From Alphaproteobacteria bacterium (GTDB lineage: Bacteria > Pseudomonadota > Alphaproteobacteria > Puniceispirillales > Puniceispirillaceae): a DNA stretch of 64,000 bases. Of this stretch, positions 52,870 to 63,675 are shown one piece after another (position 1 is the first letter of the stretch; each line of letters starts with the position of its first letter). Below the pieces are notes generated by a model, which saw only the letters and a program-made list of their open reading frames with translations, was not told the DNA's origin and did not search any database. The stretch is taken from positions 62,001 to 126,000 of the forward strand of contig JADHOL010000003.1 of NCBI GenBank assembly GCA_016779005.1, written 5' to 3'. The position numbers were made by a program, and so were the translations under genes.

Positions 52870-54054
52870 CTAATAATTAATAACGATTTCGATTCTTCTA
52901 TTTTTAGCACGACCTGCCGCTGTATCATTAGGCTCAATTGGTTGCGACTCACCAAAGCTAACGGCCTGCATCCTATCGGCAGTAACAAGGGCGGTTGCTT
53001 CTATCGACTGAACAACACTTGAGGCACGAGCAGCAGCCAAATCCCAATTATCCCGAAATCTGGAGCCAAATATTAACGGCACATTATCAGTATGTCCTGA
53101 CACATCTATCATGCTTGTGCCATCTGCACTAACCGTTGCGATTTGAGACATTATCTGCTTTGCTTCATCGGTAAGCTCTGCCGACCCTGATGGAAACGCT
53201 CCGCCAGACCCAACGGTTACAATTACCTTATCATCAATTCGCTCAACAGCGACAAGCCCCTGATCTATTTCCTGTTTTAAAGCGACCTGCAAAGCTTGTT
53301 CTGCTAGCTCTGCTTTTTGTTCTTTTTCTTGCTGTTGCGCGCCATCAATATCGCTATCAGATGTTTGTGTATTCTCTGCTGAGCGCTGGGCTGCTAATGC
53401 TAATTTCTCGAGTTTTTCCTCTAGACCACCAAACAGAATTTCTTGATCTGCTTTGCCTGTAGCCTGTTTTACCTCTTCAATCGCATCCAACGTTTCCTGT
53501 AGCATCTGTGGCAAGTTTTCATCTGTATCTGATTTAAAATTAACAACTACATTCTCGCCAAGGGATTGAATTTCAACATCCCCCCGGTCTATTGCCGATT
53601 GTAATTGGGCGGCTAGTTCTGCTGTTTCTAGCATTTTGCCAGCACCATCACCCTCGCCGCCAGCCTCACCGCCTTCAGCGCCTTCGCCCTGTTCCACTTT
53701 TGTCTCAACTTCTGGCTTTAGTGTTTCCGTGGTTTGCTGGGTTATTTCCTTAATAAGTGCAGGGTCAGGAGATGGGCTGAAATTCAATGAAAGTACGGTC
53801 GTACCCTTGGGTGGTTCCATAACAGGAACAACACGCTGTACCCCAAACGCATTTTTAAGAGAACCTGAAATTTGCTTAAATTTAGGGACGTTAAATTCCG
53901 CAAACGACAAAATCAGAACAAAGAAAGCCATTAGAAGTGTCGCCATATCCGCAAATGTAGCCATCCATGCAGGCGCTCCTACAGGGGGGCATTTGGGACA
54001 TTCCTCTTCTTCTTCTTCTTCAATCTCTTCCTCTTTTTCAGCGGCTTCTGCCAT
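52870..54054 (-). CDS. pomB: Flagellar stator protein PomB/MotB (sodium-type)
   Basis: Peptidoglycan-anchored stator subunit that, with PomA, converts ion flow to flagellar torque. The N-terminus is an acidic lead followed by CPKCPPVGAPAWMATFADM and LLMAFFVLILSFAEFNVPKF, closely matching PomB (its CPPPG...FADLMSLLMCFF and KFKQIAGSMKFAFGVQ). The essential Asp is in TFADM. A long Glu/Gln linker of about 190 residues leads to an OmpA domain (DVSGHTDNVPLIFGSRFRDN, then AKNRRIEIVINY). The 394 residues exceed the Vibrio protein because of the linker. It pairs with PomA 57 bp upstream. Confidence 0.93.
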   Translation of the reverse strand: MAEAAEKEEEIEEEEEEECPKCPPVGAPAWMATFADMATLLMAFFVLILSFAEFNVPKFKQISGSLKNAFGVQRVVPVMEPPKGTTVLSLNFSPSPDPALIKEITQQTTETLKPEVETKVEQGEGAEGGEAGGEGDGAGKMLETAELAAQLQSAIDRGDVEIQSLGENVVVNFKSDTDENLPQMLQETLDAIEEVKQATGKADQEILFGGLEEKLEKLALAAQRSAENTQTSDSDIDGAQQQEKEQKAELAEQALQVALKQEIDQGLVAVERIDDKVIVTVGSGGAFPSGSAELTDEAKQIMSQIATVSADGTSMIDVSGHTDNVPLIFGSRFRDNWDLAAARASSVVQSIEATALVTADRMQAVSFGESQPIEPNDTAAGRAKNRRIEIVINY

Positions 54055-54110: not shown

Positions 54111-54872
54111 TTAAGCTGCTTCCAGCGCCTCTTGTACTTTCGGCGATAGATTTGCTGCCATAATATCTTGGATGTTTCTTGGCGACTCACCACGGGAGAT
54201 ATTCCGTAAGCCAAGAACCACCATTTCACGATAAACCACTTCGTAAGCGGTATAATTCTCCAATTTTGTTACCATCGGCCCAAAAATCACGTTTGCGATA
54301 AACGCACCATATAACGTGGTCAAAAGTGCAACCGCCATCGCAGGTCCAATCGCTTTTGGATCTGCCATATTTCCAAGCATCAACACCAATCCAATAAGCG
54401 TTCCAATCATGCCCATTGCTGGCGCTGTATCCACCCATGCTTTCACAACACCTTGGCTAGATTCATGCCGGATTTTCATGGCTTTTATTTCTTGGTTTAA
54501 TTGCGTGGTCAGCTTGCCTTCATCGGCGCCATCAACAAGCATTTGCAACCCTTTGGCAAAAAACTTATCTGGCACGTCCTGTCCCTCAAGTGCCATCATA
54601 CCGTCCTTACGCGCAATACCAGCTAATTCTACCATGCGTGTAATTAAGTCTTCCTGCTTTCCAAGCCCTGGCATAAATGTTTTTGCCATCGCCCCGAAAC
54701 TTCCAAGGAAAACCCCCATAGGAGCCATATACATAACGGCAAAAAATGTGCCGCCAAACACAATAAGTACAGATGGCGCATTCCAAAACGGACCCACACC
54801 TCCACCACTAATCATGGCGTAGATGATCATTCCTATAGCGCCTAGAAGTCCAATAAGCGAAGCTAAATCCAT
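54111..54872 (-). CDS. pomA: Flagellar stator protein PomA/MotA (sodium-type)
   Basis: Four-helix stator channel subunit. It starts MDLASLIGLLGAIGMIIYAM, the PomA-type N-terminus, then VLIVFGGTFFAVMYMAP. The cytoplasmic loop holds the charged residues that contact FliG, followed by SSQGVVKAWVDTAPAMGMIGTLIGLVLML and PAMAVALLTTLYGAFIAN. The 253 residues are typical. Likely sodium coupling rests on similarity to PomA. No other flagellar genes are in the window, so the stator is encoded apart from the flagellar cluster. Confidence 0.94.
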   Translation of the reverse strand: MDLASLIGLLGAIGMIIYAMISGGGVGPFWNAPSVLIVFGGTFFAVMYMAPMGVFLGSFGAMAKTFMPGLGKQEDLITRMVELAGIARKDGMMALEGQDVPDKFFAKGLQMLVDGADEGKLTTQLNQEIKAMKIRHESSQGVVKAWVDTAPAMGMIGTLIGLVLMLGNMADPKAIGPAMAVALLTTLYGAFIANVIFGPMVTKLENYTAYEVVYREMVVLGLRNISRGESPRNIQDIMAANLSPKVQEALEAA

Positions 54873-55026
54873 AATAAAAAAACCAACCTAATTTGAATAA
54901 TTTGGTACTAAAGTTGCAAGTTTGATACCAAGTTTCGACATACACACCAATTTTTGATATCGTGTATAATTACGACTTAGAATATAATTTATTAGATTAT
55001 GGTAATTTTTTGGAAAGGATGCAAGT

Positions 55027-55524
55027 ATGCCCGTTTTCTGCACAATAAAATTAATCTTCAGGTTAATAGGCATTTTGTGCTCGATTTTAGCAATAACGCC
55101 TGCACTTGCCAATAATGCTCAATTTATAGCCAAGGATCATATTGTCATTGACCTGAAATCTGGAGTGGAATGGCTTAGATGCAGCGTTGGCCAGCGATGG
55201 AATGGTACGCAATGTGTGGGTGACATAATCAAACTCAATCAGGAAATGTCTGTTCAGGCTATTAATCTTGCAGATGAACAATTGGGCGGAAACTGGCGCC
55301 TTCCAACACGTGAAGAGTTAGAAAACATCGTCTGCCATCAATGTAGCCAGCCCAAAATAGATGCATCGATTTTTCCCAACACACCTGCAGAGCCATTTTG
55401 GACAGGAGAGCAGAATAAATATTCCCCGCGTCATGTATGGTCTGTCAATTTTTTCACAGGTCATACATATGGCAGGTTTATGCCATTCCAAGATTTGGTG
55501 ATTAGGCTTGTTCGGGACCGTTAG
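55027..55524 (+). CDS. DUF1566 (Lcl C-terminal-like) secreted protein
   Basis: 165 residues. A signal peptide (LIFRLIGILCSILAITPALA) precedes a DUF1566 domain with VEWLRCSVGQRWNGTQCVG, NWRLPTREELENIVCHQC and WSVNFFTGHTYGRFM. The paired cysteines suggest an exported disulfide-bonded fold. DUF1566 domains occur in surface and flagellar-associated proteins, but no role is shown here. A GGAAAGGA ribosome site precedes the ATG. The 3' end overlaps a minus-strand gene by 23 bp. Confidence 0.82.
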   Translation: MPVFCTIKLIFRLIGILCSILAITPALANNAQFIAKDHIVIDLKSGVEWLRCSVGQRWNGTQCVGDIIKLNQEMSVQAINLADEQLGGNWRLPTREELENIVCHQCSQPKIDASIFPNTPAEPFWTGEQNKYSPRHVWSVNFFTGHTYGRFMPFQDLVIRLVRDR

Positions 55525-55765
55525 CGTTATCTTTCGATTTATCCAACAACCAAAAAGAAAATTTTATTAAGAATAGCAACCCACCAGCTATCCAGATTGC
55601 AGCGGCGATTCCCTCAGCAGTCACCATGCTCAAAAAACGCAAATTATCCCCGCCTACCAAGCCCAATATTACAATAAACATCGTAGCTATGATAAACATT
55701 CTAATTATTCTGCAACGTTTACAGCCTACTCCTCTTTGCGCCGTATTTCTAGCTGAGGTAATCAT
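55502..55765 (-). CDS. Small protein with two predicted membrane helices
   Basis: 87 residues. Two hydrophobic segments (about residues 22-40, IIRMFIIATMFIVILGLVGG, and 53-72, IAAAIWIAGGLLFLIKFSFW) flank a short loop; the N-terminus is basic with two Cys (CKRC). No family is recognised. It overlaps the DUF1566 gene tail-to-tail by 23 bp. Support is limited to length and hydrophobic pattern. Confidence 0.55.
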   Translation of the reverse strand: MITSARNTAQRGVGCKRCRIIRMFIIATMFIVILGLVGGDNLRFLSMVTAEGIAAAIWIAGGLLFLIKFSFWLLDKSKDNANGPEQA

Positions 55766-56051
55766 ATAACAACCCTAATTATCCCTGTTCTTCAATTATA
55801 GACGCTTAAAGTAGACTAAATTTTCTAACCTATCAGTATCACAAATCAAATTCCGTGCCAAATCGCATTATTATAGCAAAATAGAATGTCTATTATTTGA
55901 CATGCATAAATTCATGCTGGAAGTAAATAATATAACAAACTGTTTTATTTGTATTTTTTTGTCAAAAAACCAACTATAGGCAACGTCAAATTAAGATTTT
56001 GCTATTTAATATATTACTTATTTAAAGTGGTTGCATCAACAGGAGGTTCCT

Positions 56052-57578
56052 ATGCAACTTATGCCATCATTAGGTCAAAGACAAAAACAATCACTGGTCA
56101 TGACACCTCAATTGCAGCAAGCGATAAAGCTGTTGCAGATGACGAATCTGGATATAAAAAACTATCTGGAAAATCAGGTTCTTGAAAATCCTTTTCTGGA
56201 GGTGCACTCGCAGGAAACACTCCTCCAATCGCTTCCATCTTCGCAAAATTCTCCAACCTCTGACACCCCACCCGAAAATCAGCCAAAAAATCAGCCCGAA
56301 ATTCAACCAGAAATTCAACCAGTAGATTCTACCTCCGCCGCTGTGAGTAATGATCCAACAGAACATGCAGATTTTGATAATCGCTACAGCTCATCCTCCT
56401 TAGATTTAGGAAATAGCCAACCCAAAAACCATGTTGCTGATTCTAATTGGGATGACATTATGTCAAATGTGGCAGGGCAACCCGATAATTTAAACACACA
56501 TATACTACGCCAAATTGATCTCAATATTAAGGATACACGTGAAAAATTCATCGCCTGTATGCTTGCTAATGCAATAGAGGCATCAGGCTGGCTTGGTCAA
56601 TCTTGCTCTGAAATTGCCTCTCACTGTAATTGCGAGGTGGAACAGATAGAAATAGTTTTAACTAAGCTACAAACTTTTGAGCCCGCAGGTATATTTGCAA
56701 GAACCTTATCAGAGTGCCTGACATTGCAGGCAAAAGAACAGGGAAGTTATGATACCATAATGGCAACTATTCTTGAAAATCTTGAATTGCTTGGTAAGGG
56801 AGAGCTCGCAATCTTGGCAAGAAAGGCACATGCAGAAATAGCAGATATCGCCAAAAGATTACAGATAATCAGGAGCTTTAATCCAAAACCAACGGCCTCG
56901 TTTGAGGCTGAATATCTAGCGGTAAATGCGCCAGACATTATTGTGCGTGAAAGCTCTGATGGATTGGTTGTAGATCTTAATCGCTCCACCTTGCCTTCTC
57001 TTGTTATTAATGAAGCATATGTAAACGAAATAAATAAAGGTGCGAGGAACAGGCAAGATGAGGAGATAAAATCGTTTACGTCTGATTCAGTTGGCTCGGC
57101 ACGCTGGCTAAAGCGCTCGCTTGAGCAACGTAATAATACCACATTAAAAATCGCAGGCGAAATCGTTAATCAGCAATCAGACTTTTTTAAAGAAGGTTTG
57201 TCTGGCTTAAAGCCCCTTTCTCTAAAAGATGTTGCAACAGCTGTAAATATGCATGAAAGTACGGTTAGCCGAGTTACAAGTGGGCTCCTTATGGCAACTC
57301 CAAAGGGATGTTTTACACTAAAATCTTTCTTTAGTGTATCCATTGCTGCAACAGAATCTGGCGATGGAACGGCGGCGGCGGCGGTTCGCGATTTAATCAA
57401 GACAATTATTTCAAATGAATTACCAAAAAAGCCATTAAGCGATGATGCAATAGCAGCCTTAGTCAGTGAAAAAGGCATTAAGCTTGCACGTCGAACAGTT
57501 GCAAAATACAGAGAAATGATGCGCATACCATCTTCATCAGAGCGCAGGCGCCAAGCAAAATTAAATATGGCTATCTGA
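56052..57578 (+). CDS. rpoN: RNA polymerase sigma-54 factor
   Basis: Sigma-54 directs activator-dependent transcription, such as flagellar and nitrogen genes. The start ATG at 56052 has AGGAGG 5 bp upstream (the frame opens 21 bp earlier). Region I is MQLMPSLGQRQKQSLVMTPQ, LQQAIKLLQMTNLDI and then NPFLEV. The core-binding region follows a low-complexity Pro/Gln linker that contains a 12-bp duplication (56295-56318). The helix-turn-helix is SLKDVATAVNMHESTVSRVT, and the RpoN box is ARRTVAKYREMMRIPSS. The 508 residues are normal. The usual downstream hpf/raiA and ptsN genes are absent. An intergenic stretch with repeats follows instead. Confidence 0.97.
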   Translation: MQLMPSLGQRQKQSLVMTPQLQQAIKLLQMTNLDIKNYLENQVLENPFLEVHSQETLLQSLPSSQNSPTSDTPPENQPKNQPEIQPEIQPVDSTSAAVSNDPTEHADFDNRYSSSSLDLGNSQPKNHVADSNWDDIMSNVAGQPDNLNTHILRQIDLNIKDTREKFIACMLANAIEASGWLGQSCSEIASHCNCEVEQIEIVLTKLQTFEPAGIFARTLSECLTLQAKEQGSYDTIMATILENLELLGKGELAILARKAHAEIADIAKRLQIIRSFNPKPTASFEAEYLAVNAPDIIVRESSDGLVVDLNRSTLPSLVINEAYVNEINKGARNRQDEEIKSFTSDSVGSARWLKRSLEQRNNTTLKIAGEIVNQQSDFFKEGLSGLKPLSLKDVATAVNMHESTVSRVTSGLLMATPKGCFTLKSFFSVSIAATESGDGTAAAAVRDLIKTIISNELPKKPLSDDAIAALVSEKGIKLARRTVAKYREMMRIPSSSERRRQAKLNMAI

Positions 57579-57848: not shown

Positions 57849-58070
57849 TTATCCAAAAATCGGTTCTGATTGCGTCCAAGGTGCCAAGAAGGGCGCGATA
57901 GAAACTTGCGTTGATGATTCTTCATTATCCTCATCATCGAACCGTACTAACTCAATCCCCATAAGCGCAGGCTCTGTATTCAAAATAGTACGATCTGTTT
58001 TAGAATTTTTTTTATGGTTTTCTGGTTTATGGTTTGCTGAAATTATAATTCCCTGTAATTGGCTTTGCAT
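57849..58070 (-). CDS. Small protein of unknown function
   Basis: 73 residues starting MQSQLQGIIISANHKPENHKK, with a central hydrophobic-acidic stretch (LMGIELVRFDDEDNEESS) and a C-terminal aromatic end. A weak AGGGAAA site precedes the ATG. No family is recognised; I found no domain, membrane segment or signal peptide. It could be real or a chance frame in AT-rich DNA. Confidence 0.4.
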   Translation of the reverse strand: MQSQLQGIIISANHKPENHKKNSKTDRTILNTEPALMGIELVRFDDEDNEESSTQVSIAPFLAPWTQSEPIFG

Positions 58071-58234
58071 AATCTGGTTTCCCTATATTCATGTCAGTAC
58101 AGGAAACAGTGCATTTTTCATGCCACCACCCGAAAAAAAACACACATTTCTTGCACATTTTTTAGAGCTGGTATTTGAGGATAGGTATTTTAGATCAGGA
58201 AAATTCGCATATGAAAATGTGAAATATGTAGGGA

Positions 58235-58537
58235 TTAGGGTGTATCTTTTAACACATCCTCTGCCATCTCCACGGTATCGATACACCTAGCCACAAACGC
58301 CATTGTTTCTGCCCGACCATAAAGCTGGCACATGCGCATAATTCCAAATCTAGCTGATGATAGCGCTACTGCTTCTGGATCTTTGCGAATGCCTGAAATC
58401 AGAGTGAGCATGGACTCCACTCCGTCCCTAATAGATTCAAGACGCTCTTGCTCAGTTGAGTTATCCGATAATGCCAAAGCTTCCATTTCATCTGGAAGCT
58501 CTTTTTTTCGTTTATTTAAATAAATAACAGAACCCAT
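58235..58537 (-). CDS. Conserved-looking hypothetical helical protein
   Basis: 100 residues: a basic start MGSVIYLNKRKKELPDEME and then acidic helices (EQERLESIRDGVESMLTLIS, SSARFGIMRMCQLYGRAETM, CIDTVEMAEDVL). No family is recognised. Composition and codon pattern look like a real gene rather than an antisense shadow, and it lies on the same strand as the M23 gene, 170 bp away. A cell-cycle or motility link is only a guess from neighbours. Confidence 0.5.
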   Translation of the reverse strand: MGSVIYLNKRKKELPDEMEALALSDNSTEQERLESIRDGVESMLTLISGIRKDPEAVALSSARFGIMRMCQLYGRAETMAFVARCIDTVEMAEDVLKDTP

Positions 58538-58707
58538 TATCTAAACCTGCTTAATTCGTTTATTTGATAACAATTAACATCACACCAAACCAAAAATTCA
58601 TGATCATAAAGGATGTCTTATAACAACGTCCGGTTTGGTATTTTTTTTAGCTGAGAAAGCACAGATTCTCATTAAATAAATATCTCTTTGTAATAACGGG
58701 ATACCGA

Positions 58708-60408
58708 TTATTGATAGGAAGTAAGCCTCAAGCTATTTGGGCTTAATAAAGATTGTCCTACATCGAAAAACTGTTTTGGGTTTTTGGATTCCTTATTCAC
58801 CCGAATTTCATAATGAAGATGTGCCCCATCTGATCTACCGCTTGATCCCATAGAGCCAACCACATCTCCTGAGGTTACATAATCCCCTTTTTCGACATTT
58901 AACCGGGCAAGGTGGGCATAAACAGTCTGTATTCCAAATCGGTGCTGCACTCTTACCACGCGGCCAAAAGAGCCTTCCCAGCCAGAAAATACAACTGTCC
59001 CATCTGCGGTCGCTCTTACTTTTTCCTGCCAAGTACCAGCTAGGTCTATGCCATGATGCATAGCCCAGTTTTTAGTCACAGGGTGCTTTCTTTTACCGTA
59101 TTTGCTAGAAATATAATAATATTTCATAGGCGAATGAAGCGGCAGAGATGCTAAAGCGTCTCTATAAATATCCAGCTCGACAAATTGTTGTCTCATATAT
59201 TCTAGGTAATCTGCTGAGCCCGGCTCCATTGGCCAATTCAGATTAACTCTCGATAGCTCTGAAGATTTTGGCTTTTGTAATTCGATACCCAACTGATCAA
59301 ACACATGTTCTATTACCCTTAATTCGCGGTCAATTGACTTTAAAAACCGTACGCCACGCACTGTTTCATTCATCCTTAAAGGCATATCGTTTGGCAGGCT
59401 CAGATTAGCAGCAATTCTGCTAATTGTATCACTCTCCGGCGCGTCACTCTCTGGTGTGTCACTCTCTGATGTGTCACTCTCTGATGTGTCACTCTCTGAT
59501 GTGTCACTCTCTGGCAAGATAATAGTCTCATCTATCCCCATCACCGTATCTGTTAATGCCCCTGCAAGTTGTCTTTCTGCTTCATTTATTACGTTACGAT
59601 CATCTCGATTCTGTGCCAAATGCGAGGGATCTGCCATGTGTTCATCGCCTATTTGCAAGGGATTAACCTGTGACGATTGCGGCGCGATACCAGCCTGCAT
59701 CTGCTCTGATGGTTGAACCTTAATATTCTTATTTTGATCTGGAACTAGGGAAAAGTTTCTCTCGAATTTGGGCAAATCAAATATAATTTGGATTTCTTCT
59801 TCCTCCAAATTTGAATTTTTTATATCAAATGAAGACAGCATCTGCTCTCGCAATTTCATTATCTCATTTAATTTTTTGCTTAAATCTATGTCATCACTTG
59901 CAGCTTCTAACGGTTGTTCGTGCCAATCATCATCATGTTCGGCAAGATTATTGATACGAGCGGCATTGCGAATATCTCTTACTTTCATTGCAAATAGATG
60001 GTTTGAGATAGATTGTTCTGTTCTACGAGGGCCTAAATTTGGAACAATTTGAATATCTAATATTTTTTCTTCGATTCTATCCAACTCCGCCGACAACTTA
60101 TGGCTTGTTATCAAGCTTGCATCAGCTGGGCTAATTAATTCCTGATTTGCAACCGTAAAAGCTGTGTTTAATGTTTGCACCGAAAAATAGCCCAATGCAA
60201 AAATGCTTCCGGTAAAAAACATCGCACAAGCACCAACATGAGATGGCTTAATAACCAGTTCCCAAGGCCCGCGTTTACCAAAAACAAGAAACCTTCTCTC
60301 TGAGAAATACCACGGCTTATCCTGTCCAACTACGGCGTGATTTACCTGTGTGCTATCCACAATACGCGGCAAGCGTTTTTTAATTTTTGACCAAAGCCAA
60401 CTTCTCAT
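58708..60408 (-). CDS. M23-family metallopeptidase with membrane anchor and coiled coil (LmdC-like)
   Basis: 566 residues. An N-terminal cytoplasmic stretch leads to a membrane helix near residues 57-77 (ACAMFFTGSIFALGYFSVQT). A long periplasmic region with coiled-coil character and a low-complexity Ser/Asp/Thr/Glu repeat follows to about residue 330. The C-terminal M23 domain has MHHGIDLAGT (His451-Asp455) and HLHYEIRV (near residue 530) as zinc ligands, with VHARL-type AHLARLNVEKGDYV. It probably cleaves peptidoglycan cross-links. Divergent pairing with bactofilin genes resembles the BacA-LmdC pair known in Hyphomonas and Caulobacter. Its start overlaps the stop of the preceding gene (TAATG). 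Confidence 0.88.
   Translation of the reverse strand: MRSWLWSKIKKRLPRIVDSTQVNHAVVGQDKPWYFSERRFLVFGKRGPWELVIKPSHVGACAMFFTGSIFALGYFSVQTLNTAFTVANQELISPADASLITSHKLSAELDRIEEKILDIQIVPNLGPRRTEQSISNHLFAMKVRDIRNAARINNLAEHDDDWHEQPLEAASDDIDLSKKLNEIMKLREQMLSSFDIKNSNLEEEEIQIIFDLPKFERNFSLVPDQNKNIKVQPSEQMQAGIAPQSSQVNPLQIGDEHMADPSHLAQNRDDRNVINEAERQLAGALTDTVMGIDETIILPESDTSESDTSESDTSESDTPESDAPESDTISRIAANLSLPNDMPLRMNETVRGVRFLKSIDRELRVIEHVFDQLGIELQKPKSSELSRVNLNWPMEPGSADYLEYMRQQFVELDIYRDALASLPLHSPMKYYYISSKYGKRKHPVTKNWAMHHGIDLAGTWQEKVRATADGTVVFSGWEGSFGRVVRVQHRFGIQTVYAHLARLNVEKGDYVTSGDVVGSMGSSGRSDGAHLHYEIRVNKESKNPKQFFDVGQSLLSPNSLRLTSYQ
59426..59515. repeat. Six 15-bp coding tandem repeats in the M23 gene
   Basis: Six contiguous 15-bp units (59426-59515, unit GTGTCACTCTCTGAT on + strand) encode a Ser-Asp-Thr-x-Glu pentapeptide repeat in the periplasmic linker. 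The central three are identical; outer copies carry one or more changes. The unit length is a multiple of three, so copy-number change leaves the frame intact. Confidence 0.9.
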
Positions 60409-60845
60409 TACAAAGCCATTCTATACATCAAAAAAATCAGTGCGATATTGGTCAATATTTGAATTGCAAGCATTGCATATAATCCCAGATTGCGAGACTG
60501 ATTGCTTATATCAAGTTTAATCGACGGAAAGGATGATGGCTGCTTTTCCAAGCTTGATGATTGTATTTGTGCCGGCATTTCGATTTTAGGTGATTGCAGC
60601 ATTTCTGTATTGATGTCTGCTTTTAATTGCCGTTGATTTTCAGCGACAATGGTATCTAGCTCAATCGTGCTAGAAACGGGCACTATTGTGTCCGTACCTG
60701 TTTGACCTACTGGATTATTTTCAACTGCTTCACGTATCTTCTCAATCCGTTCACGAATATCAATCACATCATTAACCACGACTACCACCTTGTGTCTTTC
60801 AGAAGATTGTTTCCAACCAAATATACCGTCCTGTGTGTTTGGCAT
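60408..60845 (-). CDS. Small membrane protein preceding the M23 peptidase gene
   Basis: 145 residues with a C-terminal hydrophobic helix (about 123-143, YAMLAIQILTNIALIFLMYRM) and an otherwise soluble, polar N-terminus (VVVVNDVIDIRERIEKIREAVENN). Its stop overlaps the M23 start as TAATG, so the two are very likely translated together. I recognise no family. It is a candidate partner or anchor for the peptidase, or for the bactofilins on the other side of the 149-bp divergent gap, as bactofilin partners are often such membrane proteins. Confidence 0.65.
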   Translation of the reverse strand: MPNTQDGIFGWKQSSERHKVVVVVNDVIDIRERIEKIREAVENNPVGQTGTDTIVPVSSTIELDTIVAENQRQLKADINTEMLQSPKIEMPAQIQSSSLEKQPSSFPSIKLDISNQSRNLGLYAMLAIQILTNIALIFLMYRMAL

Positions 60846-60994
60846 AATCGTTGCAACGCTTGCTGAAGTTTTCGGCGTACACGTATTATGTTAGAAACAA
60901 CTTAATATTATAGTATTTAAGTTCTATGTTAAATAACGACCAGTATAATTATTTATTTATAATAAAGGTTTCACTTTTATAGGTTAAAAATGTA

Positions 60995-61435
60995 ATGGCT
61001 AAATTAGAAAAAAATACACCTAATGGCATGAGCTCTGAATCAGTTATCGGTTCGGAAATGGAAATTGTGGGTGATATAAAATGCAATGGAATCATGCGGG
61101 TGGTCGGAAAACTTGAGGGCACTATTAACTGCAGCGAACTTATCGTGGAAGAAAATGCCAAAATTATTGGCGCGATTTCTGCTGATTCGGTTAGCATTGA
61201 TGGAGATGTCACAGGAACAATTAAAACAGAAGCAATAGAGATTAGCAGCAACGCTTCTTTCAGTGGCGAGGTGTATTATGCGCGAATCGCGATTGATTCT
61301 GGTGCGAATTTAGAAGCAAAACTTAACCATGACCCCTCTGGCGAGAAAGCCCGTAAATCTGTAAAACCAGCTGCTAGCGAAACTGACTCCAAACCAGCAA
61401 AAACAGGTAACCCGCCCAGTGATAGCACAGGTTAA
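60995..61435 (+). CDS. Bactofilin (first of three)
   Basis: Bactofilins are cytoskeletal beta-helix filament proteins that scaffold wall enzymes at sites of curvature or stalk growth. 146 residues: a short lead, then the bactofilin core with repeating beta strands (ESVIGSEMEIVGDIKCNGIM, RVVGKLEGTINCSELIV, AKIIGAISADSVSIDGDVTG, AIEISSNASFSGEVYYARIAI). A Ser/Lys/Pro-rich C-terminal tail follows. It is first in a tandem of three divergent from the M23/membrane protein pair. Confidence 0.92.
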   Translation: MAKLEKNTPNGMSSESVIGSEMEIVGDIKCNGIMRVVGKLEGTINCSELIVEENAKIIGAISADSVSIDGDVTGTIKTEAIEISSNASFSGEVYYARIAIDSGANLEAKLNHDPSGEKARKSVKPAASETDSKPAKTGNPPSDSTG

Positions 61436-61501
61436 CATCTCTCATGCTTCGCTGTGAGGCTATGTCAATTTAAGTTAATTAGAACGAAAGAAGAGTAAAA
61501 A

Positions 61502-61909
61502 ATGGCAGAAAAAATGACCACGATTGGCGCAGGCGCGCATTTTAAGGGTAAAATATCAAATGCCTCTACCATAGAGGTTAGTGGCATTGTTGAAGCAGAT
61601 GTTGCTACCGAAAAACTAACCATTAATGAATCTGGTAAATTTGGTGGCTCAATCCATTCCAAGCTAGTGGTTGTGTCTGGAAGCTATGATGGCAATATGG
61701 TTGCTGATAGTGTTTGGCTGATGCCTTCTTCACGTGTCAGTGGAGAGATAAAATATAAATCATTACAGCTAGATAGAGGAGCTGCTCTCAATTGTAGAGT
61801 GATTCAGAATTGGGATGAAAAAACCCCTTCTGATACAGAAGTCAGCGCCTCCGAAGAGGCAAAAATAGCTGCAACTAGTAACAAAGATAACTCAGAAGTG
61901 AAGGCGTAA
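61502..61909 (+). CDS. Bactofilin (second of three)
   Basis: 135 residues with MTTIGAGAHFKGKISNASTIEVSG, LTINESGKFGGSIHSKLVVVSGSYDGNMVA and VSGEIKYKSLQLDRGA. The beta-helix core is the same as in its neighbours but sequence differs substantially, so it is an old duplicate rather than a recent copy. The tail is acidic and disordered. Located 66 bp after the first. Confidence 0.9.
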   Translation: MAEKMTTIGAGAHFKGKISNASTIEVSGIVEADVATEKLTINESGKFGGSIHSKLVVVSGSYDGNMVADSVWLMPSSRVSGEIKYKSLQLDRGAALNCRVIQNWDEKTPSDTEVSASEEAKIAATSNKDNSEVKA

Positions 61910-61912
61910 ATC

Positions 61913-62242
61913 ATGGCAGACGTAACCTATATTTCACCTGAAATCATGATGGAGGGCACATTAGATGTAACCTCTGCAAAGGGCTCAACAGTTGTTCTGG
62001 CTGGTCATTTTAAAGGCGAGATGCGTGCCGTTGATGTTAAACTCGAAACAGGTAGCACCTTTAATGGCAAGATTTTCGCACACTCCACCGAAGTTGGCGG
62101 AAAAATTAATGGTGATATTGAAACCAAAAGTCTCAAGCTTACTAGTTCTGCTAGATTTGAGGGTTCGATTTTAACAGATGAGCTTGCGATTGATGTTGGC
62201 GCCGAAGTCAGCGGAAGCATCTCAAAACTGCAAAAAAGTTAA
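61913..62242 (+). CDS. Bactofilin (third of three)
   Basis: 109 residues, the shortest of the three, with little N- or C-terminal tail: VVLAGHFKGEMRAVDVKLETGSTFNGKIFAHSTEVGGKINGDIET, shortened here to its key strands. Lies 3 bp after the second, so the two are translationally coupled. The lack of tails suggests a filament core component without its own membrane-binding extension. Confidence 0.88.
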   Translation: MADVTYISPEIMMEGTLDVTSAKGSTVVLAGHFKGEMRAVDVKLETGSTFNGKIFAHSTEVGGKINGDIETKSLKLTSSARFEGSILTDELAIDVGAEVSGSISKLQKS

Positions 62243-62274
62243 CTTAGTTAACAACACTATTCTAGGAAACATAG

Positions 62275-62658
62275 ATGAAAAAAGCTGGTATTCTTGTCCT
62301 CATTATTATGTTGGTCAGCGTATCAGCTTTTTTATTATGGGAATTTGCATTAAAGCCCACACCGCCTGAAATGATTTTCGTAACAGCGAAGCTGGATAAT
62401 GGGTGTGAGTTTGATGAAAGCACTTTTGCTGTGGAAGTATATGAAACAGGGTTTGTATCTACCTTTAAAAAAGGGGTTGCCTATCTCTCTGCGCGTTCTG
62501 ATCATCGACTTCGCCTAATCGCAAACCCCGCATTCCCAGACGTGCAATATGACGGGGATCTTGAACCTGTTACAAGTTCAATAACACTCAAATCATATTG
62601 TGATTTATCAGAGCGTATGATGAATATATTCAAATCAATGAATAATACATTCAAATAG
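62275..62658 (+). CDS. Small membrane-anchored or secreted protein of the bactofilin operon
   Basis: 127 residues: an N-terminal hydrophobic helix (GILVLIIMLVSVSAFLLW, about 5-22) followed by a soluble domain with two Cys (DNGCEFDE and KSYCDLSE), possibly a disulfide in the periplasm. It follows the third bactofilin by 32 bp. No family is recognised. A role with wall enzymes is suggested only by location. Confidence 0.6.
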   Translation: MKKAGILVLIIMLVSVSAFLLWEFALKPTPPEMIFVTAKLDNGCEFDESTFAVEVYETGFVSTFKKGVAYLSARSDHRLRLIANPAFPDVQYDGDLEPVTSSITLKSYCDLSERMMNIFKSMNNTFK

Positions 62659-62745
62659 CACCTGCCACTTGAATAGGCATGCCCACAAATCGGAATGAAG
62701 AATATTAGAGCCGAATCTTGGCATGTTGTTTGCTAGTAAGGATGT

Positions 62746-63675
62746 ATGATAAATCAAATATATAACTCAAACATAATCCTGCCAGTCATACGCTGGCAAA
62801 ATCAAGCTAAATGGCTTGCGTCATTTATGTTACTTTCTATCGTTATTAGCGCTATCTGTTCAAAATCAAACGCAAGCACTGATGCTACCGCTGAGAATTC
62901 TTGCGAGGCCGTTGCATCAGAAGCCGAGGAAGCCTTTAGCCTGCCTGAGGGGATACTTAGCGCTATCGCACGTGTTGAGTCTGGTCGTAAAATGCAAGAT
63001 GGCGGCTACAAAGCTTGGCCTTGGACGATAAATGATAATGGTAAGGGGCTATTCTTTGACACACGTCAATCTGCTATTGACTATATTAACAAACAAGAAG
63101 AGCTGAATAATACAGGGATTGATATTGGGTGTATGCAAATTAGTGTGAAATGGCATGCCGATGCATTTAGCTCACACGCATCCATGTTAGACCCTTATAC
63201 TAACATTGCCTATGCCGCTATTTTCTTAGAAGAATTATATCAAAATCACGGTGAATGGGATTTAGCAATAAAGCATTATCATTCAGCCGATACGCAAAAA
63301 AACGTGCCTTATCTGCAAAAAGTAAATGCTGTCTGGAAAAACCAAGCAGAGCCGGCAACACAGCCGTCAACTGCCTCTGCCAGCTATGAAACAGCTGACC
63401 AGCTACGCAATAATTCCAACCCAGAAAACGATTATAGCGATGCCTCAACCCCGTCCTTTAAGATTGCGCGCACAGACGACACGCCTGAAACCGTGATGCC
63501 TTCAGTTGAAATAGGTTCTAAAATCGTAGAAGAAACTATCTTTGCGGCTTCAGAAGAAATTGCTCAAAGGCATAGTGATAAACAGCCCACTGAAAAATTT
63601 GCCCAAACACAGCCCTACCTTGCCAGAGAATGGGAAAAAGTGATTCATTTCAGAAAGCTATTTTCAGCAGAATAA
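62746..63675 (+). CDS. Lytic transglycosylase, SLT-domain protein
   Basis: Cleaves the MurNAc-GlcNAc bond of peptidoglycan. 309 residues: an N-terminal membrane segment or signal anchor (FMLLSIVISAICSKSNAS), then a transglycosylase domain. The catalytic Glu is in LPEGILSAIARVESG, followed by WPWTINDNGKG and DIGCMQISVKWH, family 1-like. The C-terminal 100 residues are a low-complexity tail. It lies 87 bp after the small membrane-anchored gene, completing a cell-wall hydrolase group around the bactofilins. Confidence 0.88.
   Translation: MINQIYNSNIILPVIRWQNQAKWLASFMLLSIVISAICSKSNASTDATAENSCEAVASEAEEAFSLPEGILSAIARVESGRKMQDGGYKAWPWTINDNGKGLFFDTRQSAIDYINKQEELNNTGIDIGCMQISVKWHADAFSSHASMLDPYTNIAYAAIFLEELYQNHGEWDLAIKHYHSADTQKNVPYLQKVNAVWKNQAEPATQPSTASASYETADQLRNNSNPENDYSDASTPSFKIARTDDTPETVMPSVEIGSKIVEETIFAASEEIAQRHSDKQPTEKFAQTQPYLAREWEKVIHFRKLFSAE

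Follow-up and report, generated by a model that had tools for sequence, protein, structure and literature searches.

What might a bacterium do with three different bactofilins in tandem, set back to back with a cell-wall peptidase and close to its flagellar motor genes? The question is raised by a 64,000-nucleotide stretch (the window; C30:62001-126000) of the 1.97 Mb genome of a member of SAR116 (Puniceispirillales), where the genes read, from left to right, motB(-), motA(-), o165(+), o87(-), rpoN(+), o73(-), o100(-), M23(-), o145(-) and bac1-bac2-bac3-o127-SLT(+). The core module consists of five of these, M23, o145, bac1, bac2 and bac3, referred to here as the cassette. In our judgment it is probably a variant of the BacA-LmdC module with three bactofilins and a link to sigma-54, acting in local wall remodelling in flagellated cells. 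The original prediction had placed three tandem bactofilins opposite an M23 peptidase across 149 bp, and the genes and their positions are as it described. The flagellar and RpoN context, which it missed, is the most informative feature of the locus. The cassette comprises:

58708..60408, minus strand: M23 peptidase, 566 amino acids, LmdC-like (PF01551, E 7e-31; AlphaFold2 model)
60408..60845, minus strand: o145, tail-anchored membrane protein (from alignment and hydropathy)
60840..60855, plus strand: sigma-54-type -24/-12 element TGGCATAATCGTTGCA, reading towards bac1, an exact TGGCAYN5TTGCW
60846..60994, no strand: divergent o145/bac1 intergenic region of 149 bp (from the sequence)
60995..61435, plus strand: bac1 (PF04519, E 2e-22)
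61502..61909, plus strand: bac2 (PF04519, E 3e-20)
61913..62242, plus strand: bac3 (PF04519, E 3e-15), starting 3 bp past bac2

Conservation of the cassette

Conservation was followed in 61 genomes of the genus, family and order and in an even 289-genome sample of the class, with gene maps of 33 loci from cassette genomes and 80 loci from named records; f1-f4 and g1-g13 are working labels for families and genera. HIMB59 here denotes one record so labelled (MED-G10) together with less specific alphaproteobacterial records of ~1.2-1.4 Mb (one of 2.0 Mb). Bactofilins are found in 35 of the 61 genomes and the tandem trio in nearly all 35: G022 and G033 have two bactofilins, and G026 has one, its contig ending there. 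The order motB-motA-o165-o87-rpoN ... M23-o145 | bac1-bac2-bac3 recurs in f1, f3, f4 and HIMB59, giving the same arrangement in ~100 SAR116 and HIMB59 loci, far beyond chance. The search among relatives that had been suggested with the original prediction therefore finds the gene order conserved across SAR116 families and HIMB59.

Treating the absence of the cassette from some relatives as loss was rejected, because these cases are assembly gaps. The G005 contig starts inside bac3 (ARFEGSILTDELAIDVGAEVSGSISKLQKG), the G014 contig is cut within M23, and the entire rpoN region is missing from G003, G004 and G005. Secure absence is confined to f2, which includes the complete genome G037.

The three bactofilins

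All three proteins exceed the curated cut-off of PF04519 and are the only ones in the window's genome to do so; a bactofilin-like match at G000:C20 (23.2 bits, below the cut-off, in a 1196-residue frame) was set aside. They share 26-32% pairwise identity, and their structural matches include solved BacA (2n3d) and the Thermus bactofilin (6ria). In a tree of 77 bactofilins, bac2 and bac3 each form a single clade spanning SAR116 and HIMB59 (support 95/94 and 99/95), and bac1 is almost one clade, its sole interruption being a very long extra branch. These three orthologous clades indicate that bac1, bac2 and bac3 are old, separately maintained paralogues. The concern that they might be unrelated paralogues with no shared expression is thereby eased: the three orthologous sets are co-oriented and, in the window's genus, appear to lie behind one putative sigma-54-type promoter.

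The N-termini distinguish the paralogues. The membrane-targeting sequence (MTS) of bactofilins has the consensus MFSKKKK and is common but not universal in the family (PMC12448750). Bac1 orthologues begin with MFSR or MFSK in HIMB59 and with MF (MFE, MFG) or ML in many SAR116 genomes; among the N-termini compared, no bac2 or bac3 orthologue has such a sequence. The core of bac2 is closed by a conserved DRGAALNC...NW in the alignment.

Further bactofilins occur outside the cassette in some relatives. The f4 genomes carry one or two more elsewhere (L171:5596-5949, L172:4859-5269, L173:5134-5562), one of them close to an ion-channel-like gene similar to the one found at the flagellar locus in f2, and G016 has two highly divergent ones (L170:1103-1534 and 1598-2002) beside a ParA/MinD-like gene.

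The M23 peptidase and its hairpin

The AlphaFold2 model of the M23 peptidase places a β-hairpin (strands 38-44 and 47-53) ahead of a membrane helix at residues 55-91, with a local predicted local distance difference test score (pLDDT) of ~69-91. The hairpin (38-53) and helix are followed by a long low-complexity region, helices at 348-372 and 399-420, and the M23 domain at 450-544. The N-terminal hairpin is predicted from the model to be cytoplasmic, and its residues E37, R39, L41, G47, P48 and E50 are invariant or nearly so in the alignment. The zinc-binding and catalytic positions of the domain (H451, D455, H499, H530 and H532) are likewise invariant, and with this active site intact the domain is predicted to be catalytically competent. 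Its nearest solved folds are NMB0315, ShyA and Csd1/Csd2. An in-frame SESDT repeat in the linker (~59440-59515, minus strand) is missing from close relatives, showing that linker length varies within the genus.

In Rhodospirillum rubrum the LmdC hairpin recruits LmdC to BacA and is needed for binding (PMC10945521). Two sister genomes bear on whether the hairpin has a similar partner here. In G022 (LSUCC0396) and G033 bac1 is gone, none of the six frames giving a match to it, and only in these two bac1-less genomes is the hairpin degenerate, reading HENRPLVSTCDRPVGVKSKPSFV in place of E(T/N/K/S)R(F/Y)L..(T/S)..GP(V/I)E. This paired loss is what co-dependence of the hairpin and bac1 predicts.

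The M23 gene is not the immediate neighbour of a bactofilin gene. Gene o145 intervenes, although the distance between M23 and the bactofilins is at most 0.6 kb in all loci that have both. It therefore falls outside the ‘immediately upstream or downstream’ rule used for LmdC (PMC10945521), and we class it as a variant instead of an ordinary member of the LmdC type.

o145, an obligate partner

Of the 61 genomes, the o145 profile finds the 35 that have bactofilins and no others, making o145 the obligate partner of these proteins. Across the 289-genome sample its occurrence is limited to SAR116 and a single HIMB59-like genome of 1.4 Mb, G068, which agrees with the HIMB59-type G357 in the position of flgI. 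The alignment reveals an N-terminal (D/E)VIDIRxRIExIR motif, a variable middle and a juxtamembrane PxFxLxVxN motif, and hydropathy identifies a C-terminal hydrophobic helix at ~119-145 as the membrane anchor. No Pfam or NCBIfam family was matched, and the sole match among PDB sequences was at chance level (kinesin-like, E 0.23). The genes o145 and M23 overlap by a single base (TAATG, minus strand), which suggests translational coupling; the pairing of the peptidase with a small membrane protein, proposed originally, is borne out by this overlap and by the C-terminal helix.

With its tail anchor, its constant presence and its apparent coupling to M23, o145 is a natural candidate for an adaptor: bactofilins without their own membrane attachment would need a tether, and there is a precedent in Caulobacter, where PbpC is able to substitute for the BacA tether.

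Sigma-54-type elements and the flagellar link

A scan for TGGCAC-N5-TTGCW gave hits ahead of several genes of the locus, and upstream regions of 250 bp were then scored for TGGCAYN5TTGCW with at most one mismatch, against dinucleotide shuffles. Of 89 distinct loci, 67% have a sigma-54-type element ahead of bac1, against 1% (2% at most) in the shuffles; such an element lies upstream of motA in 50%, and, as a perfect match, upstream of SLT in all 24 regions of SAR116 g1 and HIMB59 (shuffles 0-4%). By lineage, the bac1 element is exact in 7 of 7 loci of the window's genus, present with one mismatch in 43 of 43 loci of f4 and present in 10 of 20 HIMB59 loci, and an exact element lies on the o145 side in 5 of 5 loci of g4; the f4 loci are close relatives and not independent, so a better count is four lineages, with differing distances and, in g4, the opposite strand. 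In the window, TGGCATAATCGTTGCA overlaps the start of o145 and lies 139 bp upstream of the start of bac1. Thus a candidate promoter of the -24/-12 type can be assigned to the window and its genus, though not to all loci. These putative promoter motifs, at bac1 in the window's genus, f4 and half of HIMB59 and at o145 in g4, are new here. Control by CtrA was rejected: a full TTAA-N7-TTAA site is absent from 23 of the inspected intergenic regions.

The cassette also coincides with flagellar genes. FlgI or FliF is present in 32 of the 35 genomes with the cassette and in 13 of the 26 without it (Fisher p 4e-4, or 1e-4 after f2 is excluded, in tests that ignore relatedness and missing contigs). Among 15 genomes with the locus that are not of the SAR116 type, 12 have FlgI and one more has FliF.

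A proposed mechanism

We propose that the cassette, fixed in the mot/rpoN neighbourhood of SAR116 and HIMB59, would come under RpoN control together with motility genes in several lineages, including that of the window. Bac1, with its membrane-targeting orthologues, would co-assemble with the MTS-less bac2 and bac3 into a patch beneath the inner membrane. This patch would hold the M23 peptidase through its N-terminal cytoplasmic hairpin, the partner being bac1 or a polymer that contains it. With its conserved motif forming a putative cytoplasmic helix, o145 may serve as a second membrane adaptor that tethers the MTS-less bactofilins or stabilises M23, much as Csd5 and Csd7 do in Helicobacter pylori, where Csd5 brings the bactofilin to the envelope and Csd7 stabilises Csd1 (PMC9507126). 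M23 would cut peptide cross-links locally and so alter wall growth at the site of the patch, the likely outcome being a modulated cell curvature or flagellated pole. The cassette thus probably reshapes the wall locally. A more specific version, put forward tentatively, is that of a bactofilin cytoskeleton for the flagellated state, in which a trio driven from sigma-54 promoters along with the motor genes, and tethered by o145, would bring an LmdC-like endopeptidase to the site that bears the flagellum, coupling the onset of local wall remodelling to that of swimming.

Neighbouring genes

The remaining features of the locus are the following:

52870..54054, minus strand: motB (PF13677, PF00691), context gene
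54111..54872, minus strand: motA (PF01618), context gene, with a sigma-54-type element at 54915-54930 (minus strand)
55027..55524, plus strand: o165, Lcl_C domain (PF07603) with a signal-like N-terminus, conserved neighbour of motA, context gene
55502..55765, minus strand: o87, small membrane protein, always between rpoN and o165, context gene
56031..57578, plus strand: rpoN, sigma-54 (PF04552/PF04963/PF00309), context gene
57849..58070, minus strand: o73, small protein with no family
58235..58537, minus strand: o100, unnamed cytoplasmic three-helix protein, a marker of the SAR116/HIMB59 flagellar locus, independent of bactofilins
62275..62658, plus strand: o127, N-terminal anchor and two conserved cysteines, no family
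62719..62734, plus strand: sigma-54-type element TGGCATGTTGTTTGCT, upstream of the transglycosylase
62746..63675, plus strand: SLT lytic transglycosylase (PF01464, E 6e-6)

Family f2 (the complete genome G037 and G040, G049 and G060) separates the cassette from its surroundings. There the same locus reads motB-motA-o165-o87-rpoN-o73-[ion-channel, cyclic-nucleotide-binding-like]-o100-SLT, and bactofilin, M23 and o145 are all absent although the family is flagellated. The retention of o100 and SLT at this cassette-less locus indicates that both belong to the flagellar neighbourhood. The names ion-channel and cyclic-nucleotide-binding-like are our own putative assignments, made from the sequences and not from a database; the f2 interval between rpoN and o100 (L158, L159, L161 and L162) holds one ion-channel-like and two cyclic-nucleotide-binding-like genes, and a ~2 kb gap between rpoN and o100 in g2, g7 and g8 may contain the same genes.

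SLT adjoins the cassette in just two groups, the window's genus and HIMB59, and in the latter it directly follows M23; its best homologue in f4 and other f1 genera lies elsewhere in the genome or was not found. It looks like a transglycosylase of a flagellar regulon and is probably part of the flagellar/RpoN set and not of the bactofilin cassette. Similarly, o100 tracks flagellar markers and not bactofilins, being present in all f2 genomes that retain these markers, in no listed genome that lacks flagella and, within the 289-genome sample, only in SAR116 and the HIMB59-like G068. Its AlphaFold2 model has three helices (pLDDT 80) and no match to its fold in the PDB (best E 6.8).

The protein o127 has an N-terminal hydrophobic helix at ~1-28 and two conserved cysteines, is probably periplasmic and matched no Pfam or NCBIfam family. 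The anchored protein and the lytic transglycosylase that had been read on the plus strand are thus both there, as the helix and PF01464 attest. Found in the window's genus and in g13, where it lies farther from the bactofilins, o127 is an accessory, lineage-restricted gene. The gene o73 occurs in the window's genus; weak matches to it adjoin rpoN in f2, in some genera of f1 and at two HIMB59 loci. The pair o165 (Lcl_C) and o87 (55027-55765) is conserved in the motA-rpoN interval of all SAR116 and HIMB59 loci, whether bactofilins are present or not, and probably represents uncharacterised motility-associated genes; a near sigma-54 element occurs at o87 in g1, g2, g7 and g8.

Weighing the explanations

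This distribution bears on the extent of the system. A fuller morphogenesis module had been envisaged, and M23, o145 and bac1-3 do make up a conserved module; the transglycosylase and the 100- and 127-residue proteins drop out on account of the f2 locus and of SLT homologues lying elsewhere. It is accordingly improbable that the whole run 57849-63675, with transglycosylase and small proteins, is a single morphogenesis operon system. Although the genes are all contiguous in the window's genus, with o127 and SLT close after bac3, both o100 and SLT persist in f2 where the cassette is lacking, SLT has its own sigma-54-type promoter, and most SAR116 genera have neither SLT nor o127 beside the cassette. 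The cassette could also serve the flagellum itself, the patch marking the pole or motor while M23 and the transglycosylase open the wall for the rod or stator, with shape not the target. Linkage to motA-motB-rpoN is fixed in every long contig, the cassette co-occurs with FlgI/FliF, sigma-54-type promoters are common to the cassette, motA and SLT, SLT comes right after M23 in HIMB59, and bactofilins are reported to affect motility in some bacteria (PMC12448750). Nevertheless, f2 keeps flagellar genes, o100 and SLT at a locus devoid of bactofilin, M23 and o145, half of the genera lack such promoters, and the hairpin of M23 indicates the LmdC type of morphogenesis, so that we regard this explanation as rather doubtful.

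In other bacteria, bactofilin-M23 pairs give curved cells their shape (PMC10945521; H. pylori, PMC9507126), and the cassette might generate curvature in SAR116, producing its vibrioid or spiral cells. Four cultured strains speak to this. LSUCC0719 (G010), HIMB100 (G025) and LSUCC0396 (G022) carry the cassette and LSUCC0684 (G037) does not; by published descriptions LSUCC0684 is a spirillum, LSUCC0719 a straight bacillus and LSUCC0744 a vibrio, and HIMB100 is spiral (PMC3368413). LSUCC0396 belongs to the vibrioid subclade Ia.IV, its shape being taken from its subclade-mate LSUCC0744. The cassette in spiral HIMB100 and in LSUCC0396 fits a generator of curvature, but a spirillum without it and a straight cell with it show that it is not required for spiral shape and does not force curvature. 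Such a generator is therefore very unlikely, and as a requirement it is contradicted by LSUCC0684 and LSUCC0719. Moreover, loss of bacA or lmdC in R. rubrum makes cells more curved, not less. That the cassette does not force curvature is consistent with this effect, and a curvature-limiting role is possible, although four strains cannot decide.

We therefore retain the sigma-54-linked variant of BacA-LmdC as the explanation, with several observations weighing against it. Presence of the cassette does not track curved shape in the four isolates, and flagellated f2, including the complete LSUCC0684, does without it, so it is not needed for flagella. The Fisher tests are weakened by the simplifications given above. 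No sigma-54 element was found at bac1 or o145 in g2, g7, g8, g10, g5 and g13, so RpoN control is not universal. The co-loss of bac1 and the hairpin is a single event in two sister genomes, and in G375 a stop divides bac1 (L183:2009-2449) into two frames, with the M23 hairpin kept intact; the stop is a sequencing error or else marks an early stage of the loss seen in G022 and G033. Finally, the window's bac1 begins with MAKLEKN and not with MF.

Comparison with known systems and significance

The original prediction had offered the locus as an undescribed system, which does not hold, as bactofilin-M23 pairs have been reported from 226 species (PMC10945521). It had also attributed BacA-LmdC pairs to Caulobacter and Hyphomonas; this is right for Hyphomonas, whereas the BacA client in Caulobacter is PbpC, LmdC being described from Hyphomonas and Rhodospirillum (PMC10945521, PMC12448750). 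BacA-LmdC of Hyphomonas neptunium and R. rubrum (PMC10945521) shares with the cassette a bactofilin gene near a membrane-anchored M23 peptidase with an N-terminal hairpin, a helix and a C-terminal M23 domain. However, that module has one bactofilin and not three, its genes are co-directional and not divergent, and here an additional obligate o145 precedes M23 and the genes sit at a mot/rpoN locus, with putative sigma-54-type promoters in several lineages. The H. pylori CcmA-Csd1-Csd2-Csd5-Csd7 system (PMC9507126) likewise combines a bactofilin, M23 endopeptidase and small transmembrane proteins, but it has a single bactofilin; the structural match to Csd1/Csd2 concerns the M23 domain, and o145 has no detected homology to a known family or solved structure. 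Several bactofilins per organism are also found in Rhodomicrobium vannielii, where they interact (PMC10259793), and in Myxococcus xanthus (BacNOP; PMC5703909), and the available portions of these two accounts mention no three-gene tandem accompanied by M23 and o145 in a flagellar setting. What distinguishes the cassette from the known bactofilin-M23 module is thus that it has three fixed paralogues, includes the obligate o145 family and sits in a flagellar/RpoN neighbourhood. Among the papers searched, none names SAR116 alongside bactofilin.

Surface seawater commonly holds both SAR116 and HIMB59, groups whose cell biology has scarcely been studied. The locus connects a shape cytoskeleton with motility control and adds o145 as a new family of obligate partners. 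The cultured strains provide a natural test set, with flagellar genes and no cassette in LSUCC0684, the cassette in LSUCC0719 and HIMB100, which have opposite shapes, and loss of bac1 and the hairpin in LSUCC0396. With three distinct orthologous sets retained even in streamlined genomes of 1.2-1.4 Mb, the question of why bacteria keep several bactofilins becomes testable.

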